Shown piece after piece: positions 3,955 to 49,913 of a stretch of DNA of 64,000 nucleotides. Position numbers and translations under genes: made by a program. The notes under the pieces were generated by a model. That model ran no database searches and was not told where the DNA came from. It saw nothing but the letters and a program-made list of their open reading frames with translations. Position 1 is the first letter of the stretch. Each line of letters begins with the position of its first letter. The DNA comes from a virus. Location: IMG/VR virus record IMGVR_UViG_3300005056_000001, positions 304,110-368,109 of that record; one strand, written 5' to 3'.

Positions 3955-4464
3955 TTAATAACCTTCCCATTCATCGTCTGTGTCAATACTAGGCACATCA
4001 CTTGTTGTGTCACAGGAAAATGGCAAGTCCTCGTTATCTTTAGGCGCAAACACAGGATGGTTTCCGAGCCATTCTTCAAAGTCGGGCGAATCGCTACCGC
4101 TATTATTGGAATGTGCCTCGGACTGTCCTGCCATGAATGCCTGTTCAAGTATATCTGTTAGTTTAGTTTTTGTGAATGAAAAATCTGTTACTGAAAAATC
4201 TTGATGAGGATCCCGACGTCGGTCTGTTGCCTTGAATACAAGTTCTCCGTCTCCACCAATTTCGCTTACCTTAAATACGAAATCATTTAATCCGTCATCC
4301 GTCCATAAGAAGTCTTCAAACTCTTTTACTGCACCAAAACTAGCGGCCTTGATTAGGTTTGTGTGTAATAAGATCGCCTTTAAATCCACCAAGAAGTTAT
4401 CCAAATTGGCAGTTGTAACACAGTCCGTGATATCCTGAAACGTTTTTATTTTATATGTTTTCAT
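3955..4464 (-). CDS. Unknown acidic protein
   Basis: 169 aa. The first half is a mixed alpha/beta domain; residues from about 110 on are rich in Asp, Glu and Ser and probably disordered. No recognised motif. It overlaps the upstream gene by 14 bp and lies in the leftward operon. Confidence 0.65.
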   Translation of the reverse strand: MKTYKIKTFQDITDCVTTANLDNFLVDLKAILLHTNLIKAASFGAVKEFEDFLWTDDGLNDFVFKVSEIGGDGELVFKATDRRRDPHQDFSVTDFSFTKTKLTDILEQAFMAGQSEAHSNNSGSDSPDFEEWLGNHPVFAPKDNEDLPFSCDTTSDVPSIDTDDEWEGY

Positions 4465-4732
4465 TGTCTATTTTTATTAGATTAATTTTTTCGGTATGTA
4501 ATTCGCTGTAATACATTGTGTTCATGGCAATATGCACGGCCTCAAGGCATACACAATTAGATCTTAGTCTATAGGAATAATCTTGAATATCTCCCTTAGA
4601 CCTTGCTGCCACACAGTCGGGTCTGTTGGCCCATTGTTCCAAGCAAAATTCTATGTCTTTTTTAAGGGTTTTTGAATGCTCCTTGAGTGTTTCTAGGCTA
4701 CATTTTGACAATGTTTTTTTGTCGTAAACCAT
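4451..4732 (-). CDS. Small helical protein, unknown
   Basis: 93 aa, predicted helical with a basic N-terminus and several cysteines. It overlaps the following gene by 14 bp, typical of the compressed leftward block. Function unknown. Confidence 0.6.
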   Translation of the reverse strand: MVYDKKTLSKCSLETLKEHSKTLKKDIEFCLEQWANRPDCVAARSKGDIQDYSYRLRSNCVCLEAVHIAMNTMYYSELHTEKINLIKIDNENI

Positions 4733-4773
4733 AATGTTTTATTTTAATGTTTAGAAAGAATTAAAAAGAGAGT

Positions 4774-4989
4774 TTAATCTTTTTTATTACTTCGTGCCAC
4801 TTTTTCGGCCCAACTACATTTTCTTCTTTTTGCATTTAATACAACGTTCTCATCACCGTCTATGCTACAACCATCTAAATTAACACCTTCTCGGTGTGCC
4901 TTTTGGACTGTCTTTCGGATCGTGTTACCTTCCTCTTCGTGTGTGTAGATAGTTTTATTGTCCCTGTCTTGGATTTCAATTTTTCTCAT
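4774..4989 (-). CDS. Small protein resembling the leader of pentapeptide-repeat proteins
   Basis: 71 aa. The segment HREGVNLDGCSIDGDENV resembles the lead-in and first turns of pentapeptide-repeat proteins (A[D/N]LxG), which in phages often follow a similar N-terminus. Only about two partial repeats are present, so it may be a truncated relative. The C-terminus is basic. Function unknown. Confidence 0.5.
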   Translation of the reverse strand: MRKIEIQDRDNKTIYTHEEEGNTIRKTVQKAHREGVNLDGCSIDGDENVVLNAKRRKCSWAEKVARSNKKD

Positions 4990-5000
4990 TGCTTATCTGT

Positions 5001-5204
5001 TTATCTGTTTAATTCGATTAAAATAAGAGGCTCTTTCTTGCCATTAAATTCAAATTGCTTGTGTGTGACCTTTACCACATTTAAAGTCGTTTCTTGACCA
5101 TCAATACGTACAGCCACGGACTCACCCTCACGAGGAATAGTTTCAAACACGGTCACGTAACAATCTGTGTTGTCAATATTGCTTTTACAAAATCCTTTTA
5201 GCAT
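5001..5204 (-). CDS. Small beta-rich protein, unknown
   Basis: 67 aa with predicted beta strands throughout (for example ESVAVRIDGQETTLNVVKV), consistent with a small barrel. It is preceded on its strand by a hairpin at 5219-5244. No function recognised. Confidence 0.6.
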   Translation of the reverse strand: MLKGFCKSNIDNTDCYVTVFETIPREGESVAVRIDGQETTLNVVKVTHKQFEFNGKKEPLILIELNR

Positions 5205-5218
5205 TTTTTTGATTTAAA

Positions 5219-5244
5219 GTGACGGGTTCATATGATCCCGTCAC
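5219..5244 (-). terminator. Stem-loop between leftward genes
   Basis: GTGACGGG and CCCGTCAC form a perfect 8-bp stem with a 10-nt loop in a 94-bp gap between leftward genes. In the leftward direction it is followed by T-poor sequence and then the 5204 start, so it may be an attenuator or leader hairpin rather than a strong terminator. Confidence 0.55.
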
Positions 5245-5298
5245 AATAATAGTAATATTTTTCGTAATATCAAAACTTTTTGGGGTAATGTGATGGTA

Positions 5299-5574
5299 TT
5301 ATTTTTTGACGTTCCCAACATTATTGATCACAACATTATTGTATCCCATTGCCAACAACATTCCTGTTGTTAAATGGTTTAAAAAATGAAACACATTCCC
5401 GTTCAGGAAATCAATCTTTACCAATGTGTTTCGGATCATCTTGTGTTCCGACTTTGCTGCACAGATATAATCAACCAACATTTGCCATGTTAAGCCGATA
5501 TGACCATCAACACCAATTTCTGCATCAATGTCCATGCCTTTTTCTGAAAGTAGATTTAATAGGTAAGTTCTCAT
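5299..5574 (-). CDS. Small conserved-looking phage protein, unknown
   Basis: 91 aa. The arrangement (MRTYLLNLLSEKG, a middle MLVDYICAAKSEHKMIRNTL, then KIDFLNGNVFHFLNHLT and MGY) has the look of a small alpha/beta domain seen in other Bacteroidota phages, but its function is unknown to me. It is the first gene behind the composite promoter at 5602-5673; the leader before its ATG is almost pure A. Confidence 0.65.
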   Translation of the reverse strand: MRTYLLNLLSEKGMDIDAEIGVDGHIGLTWQMLVDYICAAKSEHKMIRNTLVKIDFLNGNVFHFLNHLTTGMLLAMGYNNVVINNVGNVKK

Positions 5575-5601
5575 CTTTTATTTTTTTTTGTGTCTTTACT
5601 A

Positions 5602-5673
5602 ATGATTGCCTTACAAATATAGACAAAAATCCGTGCCCACAAGCATGGACACGGATTTTAACATTTCTTTAAC
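5602..5673 (-). promoter_or_regulatory. Composite terminator-promoter element, copy A
   Basis: Read leftward: paired GTTAA repeats 11 bp apart (5655-5673), an imperfect 14-bp stem (5646-5659 with 5626-5639), a TTG -33 box in the loop (5640-5642), 18 bp, the -7 box TATATTTG (5614-5621) and a conserved leader TAAGGCAATCAT (5602-5613). The -33/-7 pair matches the Bacteroidota consensus. The hairpin ends in T-rich sequence, so it should terminate the gene ending at 5682 and start transcription for the gene at 5574. Copy B at 6486-6557 is almost identical. Confidence 0.8.
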
Positions 5674-5681
5674 GTTTTTAA

Positions 5682-6464
5682 CTAAATTTTCATTTTGGAG
5701 TTGTTCTTTAAAATACTACTGAGCTCTGTTTTTGAATCCTTCAAAAGCTTTTTGTGTGCCTTAACACTGTCGGTTGCCCATTTAATATGTTTTTTATAGG
5801 AGTTAACACAATCCTTGATGCACTCTTTTTGATATTTCTTGTAACCCTCAATATCATTTTTGTATAATTTGTAATTGTGACAAGATTTGTCAATACTCTC
5901 AAAATCATCCAATAACCAAGAAACATTTTTATGTTCCAATATTTGTGTGACAGTCTTTATGTTTTTCTTGGTGGCTAGGTACTCAAGGTTTCTGTTAATC
6001 GAAGATTTGGCCAATGTAATCACATCGTTCAATTTTTTTGTGCGGTTATTTTGGCGTTTAACGGCCTTTGACAGTGCTTCGTACTTGTCTGTCACATCTT
6101 GTCTGTTTGTTTGAGGAAGGGTGGTTTGTGTGGTGTAGCGTGTATGAAACCGTTGCTTGTTCCATCCACCCGCATAAATAACATCAGTAGTCAATGTATA
6201 CTCTCTTTCGTCACGTATGATAATGGCATTAATTGTAACATTCCCACAATCAAGATTTGCCGTGAACGATTTTAGTTTGTCTGTTGGAAGTGTGTATTTA
6301 TTTATTGATGTTGCCATCTTATAAACCATGTCCAACCTAAGACATTGTTTGTCGTACTTGCTTAATGCCTTGCCATTCTTTTGGATGTTGTGGTCATTAA
6401 CCTTTTTGATAATGGTATTGATCCAAGAGTTTGACTTTTCGATAATTGTTTCCAAGATATGCAT
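5682..6464 (-). CDS. Unknown Lys/Asn-rich helical protein
   Basis: 260 aa, basic. An N-terminal helical region is followed by a beta-rich middle (VTINAIIIRDEREYTLTT, residues about 75-95) and a long Lys-rich helical C-terminus from about 125 on. No domain recognised. It sits alone between two copies of the composite terminator-promoter element, so it is probably its own transcription unit. Confidence 0.7.
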   Translation of the reverse strand: MHILETIIEKSNSWINTIIKKVNDHNIQKNGKALSKYDKQCLRLDMVYKMATSINKYTLPTDKLKSFTANLDCGNVTINAIIIRDEREYTLTTDVIYAGGWNKQRFHTRYTTQTTLPQTNRQDVTDKYEALSKAVKRQNNRTKKLNDVITLAKSSINRNLEYLATKKNIKTVTQILEHKNVSWLLDDFESIDKSCHNYKLYKNDIEGYKKYQKECIKDCVNSYKKHIKWATDSVKAHKKLLKDSKTELSSILKNNSKMKI

Positions 6465-6485
6465 AATGACTATTTTTGTTTACTA

Positions 6486-6557
6486 ATGATTGCCTTACAA
6501 ATATAGACAAAAATCCGTGCCCACAAGCATGGACACGGATTTTAACATTTCCTTAAC
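6486..6557 (-). promoter_or_regulatory. Composite terminator-promoter element, copy B
   Basis: Nearly base-for-base copy of element A. GTTAA pair at 6539-6557, stem 6530-6543 with 6510-6523, loop TTG, -7 box TATATTTG (6498-6505) and leader TAAGGCAATCAT (6486-6497). It drives the 260-aa gene at 6464 and can terminate the gene ending at 6571. Confidence 0.8.
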
Positions 6558-6570
6558 AGTATGTCATTAA

Positions 6571-7071
6571 TTAACGATTGTATATATCTTCTTCCTCATC
6601 TGTTAGGGGTATATTACCTTTTACCTTAGTTAAAGCAATTTCGGCTTTTATGGCCTCGACTTTACGGTGAAAATTACCCATTTCAGCATAGACATTCTCG
6701 GAATCACTGTGTCTAAGGTTGTTGGAATCTATACGCAATTCTGAAATAGATCTTTCCATCGTGTCGATTTCGGATAACAAAATTTGCTCTCTGCGTAATT
6801 TATCCTGAATTAAAGATTTAGGTTCCCCTATTAAGGCTTTAATTATTTTTGCCAACAGGAAAAATCCCCAAAACAGGCTTAGTAACCACATATCATTGTG
6901 ACTATAAGAATATTGTTTCAATTTAATCAGGTTATATTTTGTAGGATCCTTGTATTTATTGGTTATAAATATATTATATAACCTTATACATCCGAACATC
7001 ACAAGAGATAAATAGAAATATCCAATAACAAATAATACATTAAAAGGAATTGTTTTTATATACTCAAACAT
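6571..7071 (-). CDS. Two-TM membrane protein with coiled coil
   Basis: 166 aa. Hydrophobic segments near residues 10-34 and 60-82, then a heptad-like helix from about 90 to 150 (for example LLSEIDTMERSISEL). Probably anchored in the inner membrane with a cytoplasmic coiled coil. Function unknown; layout resembles the 103-aa protein at 8607, which has one TM plus a coiled coil. Confidence 0.7.
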   Translation of the reverse strand: MFEYIKTIPFNVLFVIGYFYLSLVMFGCIRLYNIFITNKYKDPTKYNLIKLKQYSYSHNDMWLLSLFWGFFLLAKIIKALIGEPKSLIQDKLRREQILLSEIDTMERSISELRIDSNNLRHSDSENVYAEMGNFHRKVEAIKAEIALTKVKGNIPLTDEEEDIYNR

Positions 7072-7106
7072 TTTTTATTTTTAAAAGGTTGAAGAATTAT
7101 AAGTCA

Positions 7107-7307
7107 TTACGATTGTGTCAGTCTACCCTTTCCGATCCAAATGATCAACGTGTCACCGTCGGTTCTGTGCATGGTAGTCAATTCGGCAGCCATACAGTCT
7201 TCTAGTATGCTACACAATCTCTCGGCAGAGTACTTAAACTCGCTATTGTGTTCATAACCAACCTCTTTTAGCTTAGATTTCCAATATAAAATTCTAATAG
7301 TTTTCAT
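7107..7307 (-). CDS. Small unknown protein
   Basis: 66 aa, alpha/beta, no recognised motif. It is the first gene behind the promoter element at 7341-7402, with a leader of about 27 nt. Confidence 0.6.
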   Translation of the reverse strand: MKTIRILYWKSKLKEVGYEHNSEFKYSAERLCSILEDCMAAELTTMHRTDGDTLIIWIGKGRLTQS

Positions 7308-7340
7308 AGTCGTAAATTAATGTTGTTTTAATCAATAGCA

Positions 7341-7402
7341 CAATATTAAACAAAAAAGTCCGTACCAAAAAATTTTAGTACGAACTTTAACATTTTCTTA
7401 AC
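7341..7402 (-). promoter_or_regulatory. Composite terminator-promoter element, divergent copy
   Basis: Same design as copies A and B with different sequence: GTTAA pair 11 bp apart (7385-7402), stem 7378-7387 with 7356-7365 (one wobble), TTG at 7366-7368, 17 bp, -7 TAATATTG (7341-7348). It lacks the TAAGGCAATCAT leader. It terminates the gene ending at 7412 and starts the gene at 7307. Confidence 0.7.
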
Positions 7403-7411
7403 ATATACATG

Positions 7412-7720
7412 CTATTTTATGTACTTGCCCTCTACGCCACGACGTTTTCTGTCTTTCGTGCGCCTGTTTTGAGTTTTCAGTGCCACGTTTATAAGGTCTA
7501 TAGTCTTTTCGTTTTCTTTACAAGGAAGCGCATCATTAAGGCTAGTGTAGAGGTTTCTTACAAATTCTAGCATGTCGGTTGCCTGACATCCATTAATACC
7601 AACATCGCCAATTGGAGCATCCTGTACCTCAAACGTTACGCTATGATCTTCCTGTGATAGTTGAACATATACTCTTACGTCATGCTCCAATTTATTTCGT
7701 GCCTCTGTTACGTGTTTCAT
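7412..7720 (-). CDS. Acb2/Tad1-like anti-defence nucleotide sponge
   Basis: 102 aa. Three blocks match the pattern I associate with the Acb2/Tad1 hairpin family: DAPIGDVGINGCQATDML (residues 34-51), PCKEN (66-70) and RTKDRKRRGVEG (87-98), in the usual order and spacing, after an N-terminal beta segment. Characterised members bind immune signal nucleotides (cyclic oligonucleotides for Acb2, gcADPR for Tad1) and so block CBASS or Thoeris defence. Which ligand this one binds cannot be read from sequence. It is the last gene before the composite element at 7341-7402. Confidence 0.75.
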   Translation of the reverse strand: MKHVTEARNKLEHDVRVYVQLSQEDHSVTFEVQDAPIGDVGINGCQATDMLEFVRNLYTSLNDALPCKENEKTIDLINVALKTQNRRTKDRKRRGVEGKYIK

Positions 7721-7769
7721 ATTTTTGTTTTTATTAATTACTGATTGTTATGGTTGTCGTGCTTGGTTT

Positions 7770-7991
7770 CTATCGCTTACTTTTCGTGTTCCTCTGAATG
7801 TGTCTGAATTTTACGATAATATTCAAATCTAATTTGATGGGTATTTCGCCAATAAAAGGTCTGTAGTAATACTCACCCGTCAGATGATTGGTGTAACCCT
7901 TGAATTCGTCGCCATCTTTGTCTATAAACATAAACTGCTCACCACCTGTTATCTTAAAATTGTGCCGTGTTTTTACTGTATATACATCCAT
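7770..7991 (-). CDS. Small beta-rich protein, unknown
   Basis: 73 aa with mostly beta-type sequence and a basic C-terminal tail (RHIQRNTKSKR). No recognised family. Confidence 0.55.
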   Translation of the reverse strand: MDVYTVKTRHNFKITGGEQFMFIDKDGDEFKGYTNHLTGEYYYRPFIGEIPIKLDLNIIVKFRHIQRNTKSKR

Positions 7992-8043
7992 ACCATTTCA
8001 ATTTTTTATTATCTTCAGAACTGTTTTTATCGACACTTATCCA

Positions 8044-8361
8044 TTATCCTTGCTCGTTCTCATCATACAAACGTTCTAAGACTCTTATCGAATCCATGGC
8101 AGCCTCTTTGCATACACCCAAAGAATGTTTGTCCTTCGCCTTTATTAAAACCTCCACATAGGAATATTTTAACAACATTACAGTAAGTGCCAAAGATAAC
8201 ATTTCGATGTACGTACAGTCATTCGTTTTCAATCTAAAATCTTCTTTGTCAAGTTTTTCGGAAACCAACATGTTCGCATATCCGTATATACCAACAGACT
8301 TGTCATGTGGTATCATACCTATAACGGATTCGAAATCCTCAATTTTTTGTTTATTTTTCAT
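8044..8361 (-). CDS. Unknown helical protein
   Basis: 105 aa, mostly helical (YIEMLSLALTVMLLKYSYVE, residues about 50-69), acidic C-terminus. No recognised domain; part of the leftward small-gene run. Confidence 0.6.
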   Translation of the reverse strand: MKNKQKIEDFESVIGMIPHDKSVGIYGYANMLVSEKLDKEDFRLKTNDCTYIEMLSLALTVMLLKYSYVEVLIKAKDKHSLGVCKEAAMDSIRVLERLYDENEQG

Positions 8362-8368
8362 AGTTTAT

Positions 8369-8599
8369 TTACCATCTGACTTCACAACCATCTTTTCCAT
8401 TAATTACCTGATAACCAAGAACCACCAAAAGTTCCCCCACCGTTTTATTGATTGGAAAGTGTGGTAGGTTGTTCTTAAAAAGGACATAACCAAGCCCTTC
8501 CTTGGCCCGCTTTTCAATACAGGCACAAACGTGTTCTAGTGTTGTGTTTTTGTTGTTGGCTATTATGGTCAGCGTCTTAGCCTCTGTTGCTCTTAACAT
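8369..8599 (-). CDS. Small phage protein (AxEA...GY.V...W pattern)
   Basis: 76 aa. The pattern EAKTLTIIAN, then a helix with CACIEKRAKEGLGY, then GELLVVLGYQV and a terminal W is common among small phage proteins of unknown role. It lies 8 bp downstream of the next gene in the operon. Confidence 0.6.
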   Translation of the reverse strand: MLRATEAKTLTIIANNKNTTLEHVCACIEKRAKEGLGYVLFKNNLPHFPINKTVGELLVVLGYQVINGKDGCEVRW

Positions 8600-8606
8600 T
8601 TTTTGT

Positions 8607-8918
8607 TTATGGTTTTAGCAGACATTTCTCGATCTGTTCAATTTTGATTAGGATTCTTTCGGACTCATTACTGTCTTGACATTCGGCAAATTTTAGGGTT
8701 AGATCATCCCGTCGTGCCTCGAGCTTGACGTTTTTGCCCTGTCGCTTTGTGTTCTTTAGTGTTGACTTTAGCTGTAACATTTTGCGTTCGTTGTACCCGT
8801 TAATACCTGCCATTAGCAATGTGTACAGACCTCCTAAGACGGATACTATTAGAAAAAATGCAAAAATGATAATTACTTTGGTACTATTTTCGTCAAGACT
8901 GTTTATAAATTCCCACAT
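8607..8918 (-). CDS. Single-TM protein with basic coiled coil
   Basis: 103 aa. One hydrophobic segment (about 15-37) followed by a strongly charged, Lys-rich helix (residues 48-100). Predicted bitopic membrane protein with a cytoplasmic coiled coil. Function unknown; a spanin-like role would need an outer-membrane partner, which is not visible next to it. Confidence 0.65.
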   Translation of the reverse strand: MWEFINSLDENSTKVIIIFAFFLIVSVLGGLYTLLMAGINGYNERKMLQLKSTLKNTKRQGKNVKLEARRDDLTLKFAECQDSNESERILIKIEQIEKCLLKP

Positions 8919-8938
8919 TTATTGTTGTGTTTAAAGGT

Positions 8939-9577
8939 TTATGAATTTCGGGACTCACAATTGAAATGTGTCATGTGCCTATCACTGTTAAACACCATTA
9001 AATACCGAATGTCACACACCCCAATGATTAGCCACAATTCACCACTTCCCATAGGCGCAGCACTCCAAACAAAATTTTCATACTTTATAACACACACAGT
9101 CTCTACCAACAATTTTTTAGTTTGTTCGGGAGACAGTCTTTCTTTGTGTACCTTGGCGATTAATAGTTCAGTTTCTTCGTAACGTCCCTTTTTGAACAAA
9201 TCAATTTCCTCCTCCGTATAATACTGCGGCTCGGCTGTCGGGTCAGTATAGAACAGATATTTATCGTCGTCTATCTTCTTTGACTTATATGAAATATATT
9301 GGGGGCACGGTAACGGCTCAGTTAGACCCTGTATAAGTTTTGCATTGTATCGTTTTGCTTCCTTCCGTGCCTTTGCCATGCTCGGAAAAATACCATGATG
9401 TACCAATGATTTGCTATATCGTTCGACATCTATTGGCGGACAGCCGAATAACATGGGTTCGCAACCAATATATTTTCTGTCTTCGCTTTCTTCGTTCATT
9501 ATGTTATTGTTTTTGTCATAGGGATATATTGCATATCCCCCGACATTAAATAATACTTCATTTTTCAATTTGCGCAA
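8939..9577 (-). CDS. Unknown protein, 212 aa
   Basis: Begins with a small domain (FNVGGYAIYPYD), then a helical region with FPSMAKARKEAKRYNAKLI and a C-terminal alpha/beta part (ELWLIIGVCDIRYLMVFN). No family recognised. The gap to the upstream gene is 11 bp. Confidence 0.65.
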   Translation of the reverse strand: MRKLKNEVLFNVGGYAIYPYDKNNNIMNEESEDRKYIGCEPMLFGCPPIDVERYSKSLVHHGIFPSMAKARKEAKRYNAKLIQGLTEPLPCPQYISYKSKKIDDDKYLFYTDPTAEPQYYTEEEIDLFKKGRYEETELLIAKVHKERLSPEQTKKLLVETVCVIKYENFVWSAAPMGSGELWLIIGVCDIRYLMVFNSDRHMTHFNCESRNS

Positions 9578-13051: not shown

Positions 13052-13573
13052 TTAAACGCCAAGCTCCAACGGATGTTCGAGCATATCCACGAACTCAATA
13101 GTCAGAAACCAATCGCCCTTCTTGTATTTGAATTCTGCCTCATTTTCGCTTTTTCGTTTACGCACGAAATCCTTGTGCTTCTTATATTTTTCAAATAGTT
13201 TATTATAACCTTTTCTTGCATCTATGGAATTTGTATAAAACCTTGATTTTGAGTTCAAACAAAATGTATGGTCAATACACCCGTCAACGATCTTGTATCT
13301 ATACCCGTCTAAATCCAATAAATCTTGTATGGTAACACCCTCAGTCTCTTTCATATTGTTTTGGTCACAATATGAAAATCTAGGAACCATTTTATTCTCG
13401 TGCCGAACCGTGTCGGTAAACATGGCATATGGTTGCACAATTGTCGCATGGTCGCCATACATTTTCTTGTATACCACCAATCGGCTGTTGTCCTCGGAAT
13501 GATTTGCCACGGAAATAACCCTGTAGTGTTTGCCTTTATAGTGTTGATATACTCCTTTGTCTATTGTTTTCAT
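13052..13573 (-). CDS. DUF1653-domain protein
   Basis: 173 aa. Residues about 7-60 match DUF1653 (GVYQHYKGKHYRVISVANHS, then LVVYKKMYGD and MF), a small SH3-like barrel of unknown role common in bacteria and phages. The rest is a Lys-rich helical extension. It is coupled to the upstream membrane gene by an ATGA overlap (13570-13573). A truncated duplicate of its 5' end lies at 14003-14144. Confidence 0.8.
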   Translation of the reverse strand: MKTIDKGVYQHYKGKHYRVISVANHSEDNSRLVVYKKMYGDHATIVQPYAMFTDTVRHENKMVPRFSYCDQNNMKETEGVTIQDLLDLDGYRYKIVDGCIDHTFCLNSKSRFYTNSIDARKGYNKLFEKYKKHKDFVRKRKSENEAEFKYKKGDWFLTIEFVDMLEHPLELGV

Positions 13574-13992
13574 TGTAATAAATCATTTAGATACATATAA
13601 TAAAATATACACAAAATAATAAGTCCACAAACACGTGAAGGTCGAAGTGTTTTCGAACGAAAAATACCATGAAAAATTGTGGAGCGTAATGATATGGATG
13701 TAAAAATTATACCAAGAATAGAAAACGCATAGATGGCATTTATACACATTTTCTTACGGCTCATGTGTGAAGATATATTGGTGACCACATCATTCTGAAT
13801 ATTACCAATATTCTCGACAATACCACCAACATCAAGCACTTCGGTGACACCCACCTGATCCTTAAGCACAGAATCTTTTATACAAATATCCAACCAAATA
13901 TCATAGCCATACAGACCCGACAAAACAAGGGCCATAGCGAACAATATATACCATGGCATGTTCTCTTTCATTATTTCTATTCGTTCTTTCAT
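13570..13992 (-). CDS. Membrane protein B, paralogue of membrane protein A
   Basis: 140 aa from the ATG at 13992. The first 50 residues (MKERIEIMKENMPWYIL, then a TM) nearly equal those of the gene at 14252-14713. The remainder differs and holds two more TM segments. The upstream reading-frame extension to 14052 is residual DUF1653 sequence, not part of this gene. This is the product of a local tandem duplication. Confidence 0.7.
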   Translation of the reverse strand: MKERIEIMKENMPWYILFAMALVLSGLYGYDIWLDICIKDSVLKDQVGVTEVLDVGGIVENIGNIQNDVVTNISSHMSRKKMCINAIYAFSILGIIFTSISLRSTIFHGIFRSKTLRPSRVCGLIILCIFYYMYLNDLLQ

Positions 13993-14002
13993 GTTTAATA
14001 TA

Positions 14003-14144
14003 TGTTGCACAATTGTCGCATGGTCGTCATACATTTTCGGGTACACCACCAATCTGCCGTTGTCCTCGGAATTATTTTCCTCGGAAAAAACCCTGAAGTG
14101 TTTGTCTTATAGTGTTGGTATACTCCTTTGTCTATTGTTTTCAT
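14003..14144 (-). pseudogene. Truncated, frameshifted copy of DUF1653 gene 5' end
   Basis: Reading leftward from the ATG at 14144, the sequence follows the first ~145 bases of the gene at 13573 almost base for base (MKTIDKGVYQHYK), then shifts frame after the HYK codons and breaks off just before membrane gene B. It is a non-functional remnant left at the duplication joint. Confidence 0.8.
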
Positions 14145-14251
14145 GTTTTAGTTGTTAGGTGTGTATTTGTAACGTGGAAAAATAAAGAACATACGATCCC
14201 TAGATCAACTCTAGGTTGTTGGATAATGATTGTATACCCACCACAATTATA

Positions 14252-14713
14252 TTAATACTTTTTAAAGGGTCTTATCAGCCCAATAAAATATACTAGAGTT
14301 AAGCCACCGCCTAGTACTATTAAATATCGCCCAAATGGCGTAAATGGTAGTATATTACTGAATTCATCCTCTACTAACACACTATCATGTTCGGATTTGT
14401 TCAGATTTGTAGTGTCAGGAGTAATCACATCTACATCACGCACTGAACCATCGACTGTAACAGCCTCAACAACACGCTCCTCAAACGTCCTTAGTATTGG
14501 CACCGTGTCGTCGGCCCAAATAATATCACCATTCTCGGCAAGATAAGGAACATCAAGCACTTCAGTGACCTCCACCCGATCCTTAAGCACAGAGTCTTTT
14601 ATGCAAATATCCAACCAAATATTATAGCCATACAGGCCCGATAAACCAAGGGCTATTGCGTACAATATATACCATGGCATGTTCTCCTTCATTATTTCAA
14701 TTCGTTCTTTCAT
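14252..14713 (-). CDS. Membrane protein A
   Basis: 153 aa. An N-terminal TM (about 14-32), an acidic soluble middle (residues 50-125) and a C-terminal TM (about 127-147). The soluble part would lie outside the cytoplasm if both ends are inside. Parent or sister of membrane gene B. Function unknown. The region 14145-14251 downstream holds only a short CCTAGA/TCTAGG hairpin. Confidence 0.7.
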   Translation of the reverse strand: MKERIEIMKENMPWYILYAIALGLSGLYGYNIWLDICIKDSVLKDRVEVTEVLDVPYLAENGDIIWADDTVPILRTFEERVVEAVTVDGSVRDVDVITPDTTNLNKSEHDSVLVEDEFSNILPFTPFGRYLIVLGGGLTLVYFIGLIRPFKKY

Positions 14714-14715
14714 TA

Positions 14716-15069
14716 TTAATATAGGTCGCTTATGTGATAAAATGCATCATAGGATATTCCGTCAATCATTAAAATAGCATCTCTATGCGCCCTTGCGTCC
14801 ATGACATCAATTAATGTTACACTTGATTCTACACCCGTGATTAATGATAGGTTGTTATTAAGCTCCCAAACCCCGTCGTCTCTAAACGAAATCTTATGGT
14901 ATCCAAAACAAGGAGGATACCCGTCTATAAAAATGAACGTTATAACTTCACATTTCGATTTTTTCATAATTTTTTCTTTTCGGGACGATTTCCAATTTTC
15001 CCAATCCTCTTTGGTCATGTTATTTATATGATCATAAAATTGGCTGTCTAGTTTGTTCCAATCTGCCAT
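14716..15069 (-). CDS. Unknown protein, 117 aa
   Basis: Helical basic N-terminus (TKEDWENWKSSRKEKIMKKS) and a beta-rich C-terminal half. Two bp separate it from membrane gene A. No family recognised. Confidence 0.65.
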   Translation of the reverse strand: MADWNKLDSQFYDHINNMTKEDWENWKSSRKEKIMKKSKCEVITFIFIDGYPPCFGYHKISFRDDGVWELNNNLSLITGVESSVTLIDVMDARAHRDAILMIDGISYDAFYHISDLY

Positions 15070-20245: not shown

Positions 20246-20597
20246 TACTCTCTTTTGTGGGACGCACCAAAACGATATTTCTATACATAGAAAAAAATTG
20301 CCAACGCCATCCGCTAACCTTTATGCTGTATGTGACACCCTCGGTCAATTCGTTCTGAACATCAGAGCTATTAAACTTAAGGTAGAGCCACGAGTCCACA
20401 TTTTCAAACACCTCACCGTCTGTGTATACAAGGTATTTACTCTTGGTGCCTTTATTATCGTTGTCGTTGACGACGATCGATTCTGTTTTTTTGACGGTCA
20501 CAATCACATCCTCCGAACTGTTCCAAATCGCAATCGGGTATATAAACACCGATACAGATAATATACATAATAATCCAAGTAACAATATGTCTTTCAT
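20232..20597 (-). CDS. Membrane-anchored small-barrel protein, paralogue 1
   Basis: 121 aa. An N-terminal TM or uncleaved signal (about 3-21) is followed by a beta domain with EVFENVDSWLYLKFNSSDVQ and VSGWRWQFFSMYRNIVLV. This pattern resembles a DUF1523-like family of membrane-anchored phage and bacterial proteins of unknown role. Tandem paralogue of the gene at 20626. Confidence 0.7.
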   Translation of the reverse strand: MKDILLLGLLCILSVSVFIYPIAIWNSSEDVIVTVKKTESIVVNDNDNKGTKSKYLVYTDGEVFENVDSWLYLKFNSSDVQNELTEGVTYSIKVSGWRWQFFSMYRNIVLVRPTKESNEKL

Positions 20598-20625
20598 TTT
20601 AATCTGATTAAATTAATAATTCGTG

Positions 20626-20961
20626 TTACGGCTCAAGACTCACGGATTGTCGTACCAAAATAATATTTCTATACATAGAAAAAAACTCCCAACGCCATCC
20701 ACTAACCTTTACCGTATATGTAACGCCAACAATTAATTCTTTTTGGACATCAGGACTATTGAATTTAAGACACAGCCAAGAATCCACATTTTCAAACACC
20801 TCTCGGTCTGTGTGTACGAAATATTTACCCTCCTGATCGTGGTATTCTGCTTTTTTGATAGTGATGGTAATATCCTCGGAACTTGTCCAAATAACATTTG
20901 GGTATATTAACCCCAATAGAACCATTATAAAAACAAAAATATGTAGTGTTTGCTTTTTCAT
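20626..20961 (-). CDS. Membrane-anchored small-barrel protein, paralogue 2
   Basis: 111 aa; TM about 5-22, then the same beta domain as its neighbour (EVFENVDSWLCLKFNSPDVQ, VSGWRWEFFSMYRNIILV). The two arose by tandem duplication and differ mainly in the linker after the TM, which is 9-10 residues shorter here. Confidence 0.7.
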   Translation of the reverse strand: MKKQTLHIFVFIMVLLGLIYPNVIWTSSEDITITIKKAEYHDQEGKYFVHTDREVFENVDSWLCLKFNSPDVQKELIVGVTYTVKVSGWRWEFFSMYRNIILVRQSVSLEP

Positions 20962-22313: not shown

Positions 22314-22618
22314 GATAAAGTATTTAATTCAATGAAAACAGTTTTGTACTTGTCCTTGTATTCGTTAATCAATTTTCGTCTTAATTCCATACAAGCATCA
22401 ACAGTCTCATCGTAACCAAGACCCGTACATCTTCTTAGCAGGAAATAAGAAAATTCGGTTGTTATAATCTGTTGTACCAAATCACATTCCTGACTGTTCT
22501 TGTCGTAAAACACATTCCAAAACAAGTCTTCTGTGTCAACACGCCCTGTCTGAATAAAATAAGAGGCCGAATCTTGTATGACAAAAGGATTTTCTTCGTT
22601 TATGTTACAGTTAATCAT
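22310..22618 (-). CDS. Unknown acidic protein, 102 aa
   Basis: Helical acidic protein with two conserved-looking aromatic patches. It has 4-bp overlaps with the genes on both sides (22310-22313 and 22615-22618), so it is translated with the SEC-C gene upstream. Confidence 0.6.
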   Translation of the reverse strand: MINCNINEENPFVIQDSASYFIQTGRVDTEDLFWNVFYDKNSQECDLVQQIITTEFSYFLLRRCTGLGYDETVDACMELRRKLINEYKDKYKTVFIELNTLS

Positions 22619-23070
22619 TTTTTATTTTTTAGGCAACATTTTTTATTCTTATTTCCGCTGCCACAAGGACATTTTTCGTTGCGCCCAACCTTTGATCCCT
22701 GTGTATGGATTGTATTTGGTTTGATTGTGTATGTGCGTGAATTTTCAAATTTGTTACTGTCAAGCACCTTTCCTATCACACCATCCATTATCACACCATC
22801 AGACTCTTTGCATGTGTTAAACATGGCACTGATGTACTTGGTATCAATAAGAACCGCCTTGTCAGAAGATAACGTAACACCACCCACACTAAACTTGCTT
22901 GTGGTCACAGAGTCAGAACCGTCCCATTGCATTGTTACGGAAATGCAACCACTGTCGTTTTTTAAGGAATTGACCCATGCACAAAAGCCGTCATTTGTCG
23001 TGATGGTGTTAGGCATTATTAGTGCCTGTACCTTGCTGTTTGTTACTGACGGAATCATTTCTTTGTCCAT
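22615..23070 (-). CDS. SEC-C zinc-motif protein, paralogue 1
   Basis: 151 aa. The C-terminal ~24 residues are a classic SEC-C motif (VGRNEKCPCGSGNKNKKCC; C134, C136, C145, C146), the zinc-binding tail of SecA that contacts SecB and ribosomes and is also found in other proteins. The N-terminal ~120 residues are shared with the gene at 23139 (MPNTI, AWxxSL, SVT, DKAVLID) and are otherwise unrecognised. Possible ribosome- or chaperone-binding adaptor. Confidence 0.8.
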   Translation of the reverse strand: MDKEMIPSVTNSKVQALIMPNTITTNDGFCAWVNSLKNDSGCISVTMQWDGSDSVTTSKFSVGGVTLSSDKAVLIDTKYISAMFNTCKESDGVIMDGVIGKVLDSNKFENSRTYTIKPNTIHTQGSKVGRNEKCPCGSGNKNKKCCLKNKK

Positions 23071-23138: not shown

Positions 23139-23702
23139 CTATTTTTTATTTTTAAGGCAACATTTTTTATTTTTCTGCCCGCTGCCACAAGGACACGGCG
23201 AGTTGCGTCCAACTTTGACTCCCTCGTTTACAAACGGCACATTCCCGCTATGGATATATGCACGGGTCGGTTTTTGCCCTTCTGAAGGAAAACCATGCAT
23301 TTTGGCTATGGTGTACATCTCTTGCACTTCTTCCACGGCACCAACATTGGTCAGTGGAGAGTCCTTCTTTGACTCAAACTGTTCCTTTATCTTTTCTATA
23401 TTACTTGACGAGTCAATAATAATCGCCTTGTCAGAGAATGCCACAAGATTGAAATTGAACACACTATTGAAGTCGCCTAACTTTGTGGTGTGTTTTGTGT
23501 TGTCAATATTGTATGTGATACAGTCTTCACCCTCAATCATATCGGACGGGGAGATGTTGTCGTCCTCCTTAATCGTTACTGAAAGGTAGGTTGCTCCTGT
23601 GTCAAAACAGTCACCCCACGCATTGAACTGATCTAGCGTTTTGATGGTGTTGGGCATCTTAACCCTTTTTATTGCGTGATTGTCTGTTGAATCTTCTTTC
23701 AT
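23139..23702 (-). CDS. SEC-C zinc-motif protein, paralogue 2
   Basis: 187 aa with the same C-terminal SEC-C tail (VGRNSPCPCGSGQKNKKCC) as its neighbour and a related N-terminal domain (MPNTIKTLDQFNAWGDCF, then YLSVTI, DKAIIIDSS). It carries about 35 extra residues between domain and tail. Product of a duplication that included the promoter region. Confidence 0.8.
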   Translation of the reverse strand: MKEDSTDNHAIKRVKMPNTIKTLDQFNAWGDCFDTGATYLSVTIKEDDNISPSDMIEGEDCITYNIDNTKHTTKLGDFNSVFNFNLVAFSDKAIIIDSSSNIEKIKEQFESKKDSPLTNVGAVEEVQEMYTIAKMHGFPSEGQKPTRAYIHSGNVPFVNEGVKVGRNSPCPCGSGQKNKKCCLKNKK

Positions 23703-48759: not shown

Positions 48760-48915
48760 ATGTTAGAAACAATTATTAATTACCCAAGAGACATACTAGA
48801 ATCCTTTGTCAATTATCCGATAACCACATCTTTGTGTGTAATACTAGGAGCACCCGTGATTTATTTCTTATGGGCATATTTCAATTATAGTTTAGTTGAC
48901 GAAGAAGAAAATTAG
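48760..48915 (+). CDS. Small single-TM protein, 51 aa
   Basis: MLETIINYPRDILESFVNYP, then a hydrophobic segment (about 22-42) and an acidic tail DEEEN. It begins 30 bp after the 161-aa gene and ends just before the promoter element at 48919. Function unknown. Confidence 0.65.
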   Translation: MLETIINYPRDILESFVNYPITTSLCVILGAPVIYFLWAYFNYSLVDEEEN

Positions 48916-48918
48916 TGT

Positions 48919-48966
48919 CGGGTATTGTGAATACCGATTTTTTGGTTACATCTGTAAGGCAATCAT
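48919..48966 (+). promoter_or_regulatory. Composite terminator-promoter element, rightward copy D
   Basis: Imperfect stem GGTAT/ATACC with TTG in the loop (48925-48927), T-run, 19 bp, TACATCTG (48947-48954) and the conserved leader TAAGGCAATCAT (48955-48966). The GTTAA pair seen in the other copies is absent. Drives the gene at 49010. The leader contains the four-codon frame ATG GCA AAT ACA TGA. Confidence 0.75.
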
Positions 48967-49840: not shown

Positions 49841-49913
49841 CGTTAAGGAAACGTTAAAATCGGTATCTGCTATTGTGGGTACCGATTTTTGTTTACATTT
49901 GTAAGGCAATCAT
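49841..49913 (+). promoter_or_regulatory. Composite terminator-promoter element, rightward copy C
   Basis: GTTAA pair 11 bp apart (49841-49860), stem AAAATCGGTA/TACCGATTTT (49856-49865 with 49880-49889), TTG in the loop (49873-49875), 18 bp, TACATTTG (49894-49901) and leader TAAGGCAATCAT (49902-49913). It ends the gene at 49834 and starts the gene at 49964. The leader contains ATG GCA AAG ACA TGA. Confidence 0.8.

Follow-up and report, generated by a model that had tools for sequence, protein, structure and literature searches.

The window analysed here makes up the final 64 kb of a virus record of 368,109 bases. On its minus strand lie two intergenic blocks, at 5595-5673 (copy 1) and 6479-6557 (copy 2), which sequence comparison within the window showed to be 99% identical over 79 bp, with a single mismatch. 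The first-pass annotation had described a nearly exact repeat of about 72 bp in front of the genes starting at 5574 and 6464; this repeat is real, and the block is slightly longer. The gene below copy 1 (5299-5574, minus strand) encodes a 91-aa protein of phrog_6004 (unknown function). The gene between the two copies (5682-6464, minus strand) and the gene upstream of copy 2 (6571-7071, minus strand) encode proteins of 260 aa and 166 aa, respectively, both of unknown function. The upstream stop codons are located 8-13 nt before each element.

Both blocks have the same order of parts: GTTAA-N6-GTTAAA, a 15-bp hairpin, TTTTTG, TATATTTG and TAAGGCAATCAT. In copy 1 (all minus strand), the upstream promoter element GTTAAAGAAATGTTAAA, with two GTTAA boxes at an 11-bp step, occupies 5657-5673, and its spacing to the TTG is that of hairpin-free promoters (see below). 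It is followed by a predicted terminator hairpin with its T-run (5626-5659), recognized by folding, covariation and a terminator scan, by the TTG (-33 box) at the hairpin apex (5640-5642), by the -7 box TATATTTG (5614-5621), which fits the sigmaABfr consensus TAnnTTTG (PMC7366714), and by the leader TAAGGCAATCAT (5602-5613), where the new transcript would be expected to start. The corresponding parts of copy 2 (minus strand) are the GTTAA pair at 6541-6557, the hairpin at 6510-6543, the TTG at 6524-6526, the -7 box at 6498-6505 and the leader at 6486-6497. Both hairpins have 15 bp in the stem and GCUU in the loop, with a folding energy of -21.7 kcal/mol (z-scores of -5.6 and -5.2, with 0 of 200 shuffles as good). 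The TT of the apical TTG forms part of the loop and its G the closing G-U pair, and exactly 18 bp separate the TTG from TATATTTG; the layout proposed in the first-pass annotation, i.e. TTG at the apex, 18 bp to the -7 box and then the leader, was thus borne out. A separate terminator scan of positions 4000-9000 returned four sites, three of which are copies 1 and 2 and a diverged copy 3 (near 7388), and an Rfam search of the same interval, with E-values up to 1, gave no match to a curated RNA family.

The element belongs to a family of about 15-20 copies in the 368-kb genome, five of them within the window. The first pass had missed three of the latter, along with at least a dozen copies in other parts of the genome. 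Copy 3 (7341-7402, minus strand) is diverged, with a GTTAA pair at 7386-7402, a hairpin at 7355-7388 (-16.8 kcal/mol) and a -7-like box TAATATTG at 7341-7348. Copy 4 (49842-49913, plus strand) is full: its GTTAA pair lies at 49842-49858, the hairpin at 49856-49889, the TTG at 49873-49875, the -7 box TACATTTG at 49894-49901 and the leader at 49902-49913. Copy 5 (48908-48966, plus strand) is decayed, as it retains a hairpin remnant (fold z-score -0.41), TACATCTG and the leader and has lost the GTTAA pair. The genome-wide survey consisted of searches and the inspection of selected loci. A covariance model of the element, as proposed in the first pass, together with BLAST and two motif searches, yielded 15 hairpin-bearing copies preceded by the GTTAA pair or followed by the leader; the high scores of the copies within the model are by construction, since it was built from the copies that it then ranks at the top. 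At least four more diverged copies (genome positions 75335, 237346, 6257 and 5774) lie outside the model. The family is not uniform: two strong copies (genome 2704 and 31261) lack a TTG at the right spacing, the copy at 353056 has lost its stem, and several hairpin-bearing copies have only a near-consensus -7 box (TAnTATTG) or lack one nearby. Some dozen other GTTAA-N6-GTTAAA sites are without a strong hairpin, often with promoter-like sequence below. TAnTATTG replaces TAnnTTTG below nested hairpins at genome positions 58748, 311492, 5774, 6257 and 33218 (L028, L039, L323, L322 and L027, respectively).

The leader motif TTTGTAAGGCAATCA was found in 90 stretches of viral contigs, none of which, among those inspected, had the architecture of the element, which suggests that the leader is peculiar to this genome. 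BLAST comparison of the element and its region with GenBank phages gave no useful match. The window also contains tandemly duplicated stretches at 13432-14729 and 20263-20831 (80-89% identity over 105-211 nt), which are probably duplicated genes, and two related ORF ends at 22617-22700 and 23141-23224 (minus strand), whose hand translation includes EKCPCGSGNKNKKCC, a candidate likeness to the SEC-C zinc-binding motif.

A perfect dyad placed over the -33 and -7 boxes, in two nearly identical copies, occupies the classical position of an operator. It might therefore be a DNA-level site (a binding site of a phage regulator or a cruciform) over an ordinary promoter, with the RNA hairpin being incidental. 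The comparison of 14 copies argues against a fixed operator, as the stem sequences vary while pairing is kept: 91.6% of the stem cells are paired and two-sided changes occur in 8 of the 15 pairs, whereas sliding the partner by 1-3 columns reduces pairing to 35-54%. Moreover, deviations in the stem are mostly G-U on the promoter-sense strand (21, versus 2 A-C), which leaves the antisense fold much weaker, and the sense RNA was the more stable in 16 of 17 copies, with one tie (p=0.0004). The same trend was seen in the Tenacibaculum phages pT24 and PTm1 (18 of 22), a figure that is biased by the choice of these cases through sense-strand folding. A DNA-only dyad would give no such strand asymmetry, and we conclude from these patterns that the stem is under selection at the RNA level. 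In addition, the dyad is followed by a T-run in the sense direction and directly preceded by co-directional stops. The operator or cruciform reading was rejected on the grounds of strand asymmetry and covariation, and we consider it very improbable.

What is found instead, on the coding strand and after a gene, is a stable RNA hairpin followed by a T-run, i.e. the features of an intrinsic terminator. Its position is consistent: relative to the end of a co-directional ORF (by mechanical, uncurated ORF calls), 14 of the 15 GTTAA-anchored hairpin elements begin at -16 to +28 nt, and the next start codon is located 32-73 nt below the -7 box. In three elements the end coordinate of the ORF falls within the GTTAA/ATTAA box, which therefore appears to supply the stop codon. 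The hairpin-free GTTAA promoters mostly follow co-directional ORFs too, so context alone cannot separate the two classes.

The primary sigma factor of Bacteroidota (sigmaABfr) recognizes TAnnTTTG at -7 and TTTG near -33 (PMC7366714). The element resembles such promoters in both boxes and in their 18-20 bp spacing, but adds GTTAA-N6-GTTAAA at a fixed distance and a terminator embedded in the spacer. Given conventional placement of the -7 box, the GTTAA boxes would lie at about -47 to -63. The complete spacing GTTAA-N6-GTTAAA-N14-TTG-N18-TAnnTTTG was found in 58 viral-contig stretches, which with few exceptions form a single coherent set that has TATATTTG and, a short way downstream, a start codon. 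It was also found in 14 contigs from GTDB species genomes, chiefly of Flavobacterium and its relatives. These tripartite promoters (with TATATTTG as the -7 box in IMG/VR contigs L055-L112 and GTDB contigs L203-L216) have no strong GC hairpin. As the same spacing occurs without it, the hairpin seems to be an addition to an existing promoter design. We found no name for the GTTAA upstream promoter element. At two GTTAA sites of this genome (100206 and 102323; L052 and L053), hairpin-free promoters that are near-identical over 75 nt lie behind paralogous genes with 46% identity.

The genome encodes a T4-type portal protein (Portal_T4, PF07230; E=1.9e-52). A large protein encoded at 57-1508 of the window (PHROG 29329, unknown function) has relatives in Tenacibaculum phages PTm1, PTm5 and pT24, Sphingomonas phage PAU and Chryseobacterium phage MA9V-1, and published work groups PTm1 with jumbo phages that are relatives of coliphage T4 (PMC7824862). 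The promoters and these relatives suggest that the host of this giant T4-like phage is probably a member of Bacteroidota. A search of this genome for the sigma70 region 3 family found none, a result still compatible with a T4 gp55-like sigma factor.

The nested layout is not confined to this genome. A TAnnTTTG box with a terminator-like hairpin directly above it occurs 3 times in the window (0.0 expected), 11 times in pT24 (0.2 expected) and 11 times in PTm1 (0.0 expected), the two latter in samples of 150 kb each and with expectations derived from dinucleotide shuffles; in the sampled MA9V-1 (3 versus 0.6) and PAU (1 versus 0.4) there was little or no excess. The stems of pT24 and PTm1 differ in sequence from those described here, and we conclude from the sequences that the layout recurs independently in Tenacibaculum phages. 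According to GenBank gene calls, most of the checked cases in these two phages lie right after a stop and shortly before the next start, between co-directional genes; examples are pT24 6317, 25544 and 3835 and, in PTm1, the sites that follow ORF-288 and the major capsid gene. The site at pT24 35290 is more than 200 nt from the annotated stop, and PTm1 17358 (locus L369) has its next annotated start about 340 nt away. A pattern scan of viral contigs gave further nested cases, including some in contigs of 434 and 430 kb. In these two contigs (L424, 434,509 bases; L447, 430,120 bases) a hairpin lies directly above TATATTTG, without a TTG at the right spacing.

These counts bear on another reading, namely that the element is a terminator only, and that the -7 box and the TTG arose by chance in AT-rich sequence. 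The 64-kb window does contain some 83 occurrences of TAnnTTTG, most of which are outside recognizable promoters, and the perfect box is missing in some hairpin-bearing copies. However, the combination of box and hairpin was expected almost nowhere, and the GTTAA pair keeps its fixed spacing in hairpin-free promoters as well. Moreover, of the 27 terminators that stand before a -7 box, 22 have a TTG 18-20 nt above that box, versus 19 of 246 other terminators read at the same offset (five phage samples pooled; Fisher p=9e-17). We regard a chance promoter as scarcely credible.

Based on these observations, we suggest that each copy is very probably a bifunctional intergenic cassette, in which an intrinsic terminator is placed inside a primary-sigma promoter of Bacteroidota type. 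That one site both ends and restarts transcription, as the first-pass annotation had suggested, is strongly supported by sequence, namely by covariation, sense folding, position after stop codons, TTG spacing and recurrence. The anatomy, the RNA-level selection on the stem, the TTG spacing, the gene context and the recurrence are properties of the sequences themselves. The polymerase arriving from the upstream gene would transcribe the hairpin (AAAATCCGUGUCC..GGGCACGGAUUUUU) and undergo intrinsic termination in the T-run, just past the stop. The same DNA would act as a promoter, with the apical TTG at -33, 18-20 bp further the TAnnTTTG at -7, and upstream the two GTTAA boxes, spaced by one helical turn; the 3' arm of the hairpin and the T-run would double as the promoter spacer. 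Termination activity, initiation activity and the use of the host sigma factor are what we infer for this cassette. As the new RNA would start below the hairpin, the latter would belong to the upstream transcript only. The cassette, which appears to have been copied around the genome, would thereby make tightly packed co-directional genes separate transcription units.

The closest known kind is the PeSL (promoter-early stem-loop; Arbiol 2010, doi 10.1093/gbe/evq006; Comeau 2014, doi 10.1093/gbe/evu129; cited through PMC4503421 and PMC5348500), a composite promoter-terminator cassette of T4-like phages with a link to gene shuffling. Judging from its sequence, our element would work like a PeSL. 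Both are small, repeated intergenic units combining a stem-loop terminator with a promoter for the primary sigma factor (here, as predicted from sequence, a strong one), and both occur in numerous copies within single genomes of T4-superfamily phages. The promoter of PeSLs is that of E. coli sigma70, in contrast to the Bacteroidota -33/-7 promoter found here. In the present element the hairpin fills the interval from -33 to -7, with the TTG at its apex. A 90-kb sample of RB49 yielded one candidate with the terminator wholly before the promoter and one that may overlap the -35 box, too few clear cases for a comparison of PeSL layout. The element also resembles ordinary intrinsic (Rho-independent) terminators in its GC-containing stem, small loop, A-tract, T-run and location right after stops, but differs from them in that the apex and the T-run also serve as promoter parts.

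The PeSL model raises the question of whether the cassettes are mainly a recombination module, i.e. homologous sequences spread for the shuffling of accessory genes, with terminator and promoter as cargo. PeSLs are credited with such shuffling in T4-like phages (PMC4503421). Here, an unrelated 260-aa gene lies between the two near-identical copies, whose identity ends at the edges of the element, and copies that are neighbours resemble each other somewhat more than distant ones do (p=0.007); both observations are in keeping with copying by recombination. On the other hand, we saw no insertion or replacement bounded by the element (PTm1 and PTm5, being 99.9% identical in the compared part, are too similar to inform), and the covariation and the TTG rule indicate selection on function, beyond homology. 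A primarily recombinational role thus seems hardly probable, and the terminator-promoter cassette remains our preferred interpretation.

The nesting itself allows for a further suggestion. Release of the upstream RNA is predicted to take place about 15 nt above the predicted start; a terminating polymerase would therefore cover the promoter that it leaves, making interference or reuse of the polymerase possible. In vitro, polymerase has been observed to be recycled once it has terminated at an intrinsic terminator (PMC6978380). The first-pass annotation had suggested that hairpin or DNA occupancy could couple ending and restarting, a hypothesis that follows from this geometry. From geometry, it is conceivable, although unlikely, that nesting couples both events, so that the polymerase left after release at the T-run is preferentially reused at the next start. 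If so, the element would serve to hand polymerase over from one transcription unit to the next and thereby keep the output of successive genes in proportion; alternatively, it would act as an interlock, with mutual exclusion between a bound, initiating polymerase and an arriving one.

The element might thus constitute a natural system for asking if termination feeds re-initiation. It would also offer evolutionary evidence for the -33 TTG box and for the GTTAA upstream element in flavobacterial phages; PMC7366714 states that transcriptome data of Flavobacterium johnsoniae had revealed no -33 motif. Such compact, natural terminator-promoter parts for Bacteroidota may be of use in synthetic biology. 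Our results would extend composite terminator-promoter cassettes from the T4-like phages of E. coli to large T4-related phages of Bacteroidota, where the two functions would overlap more intimately.
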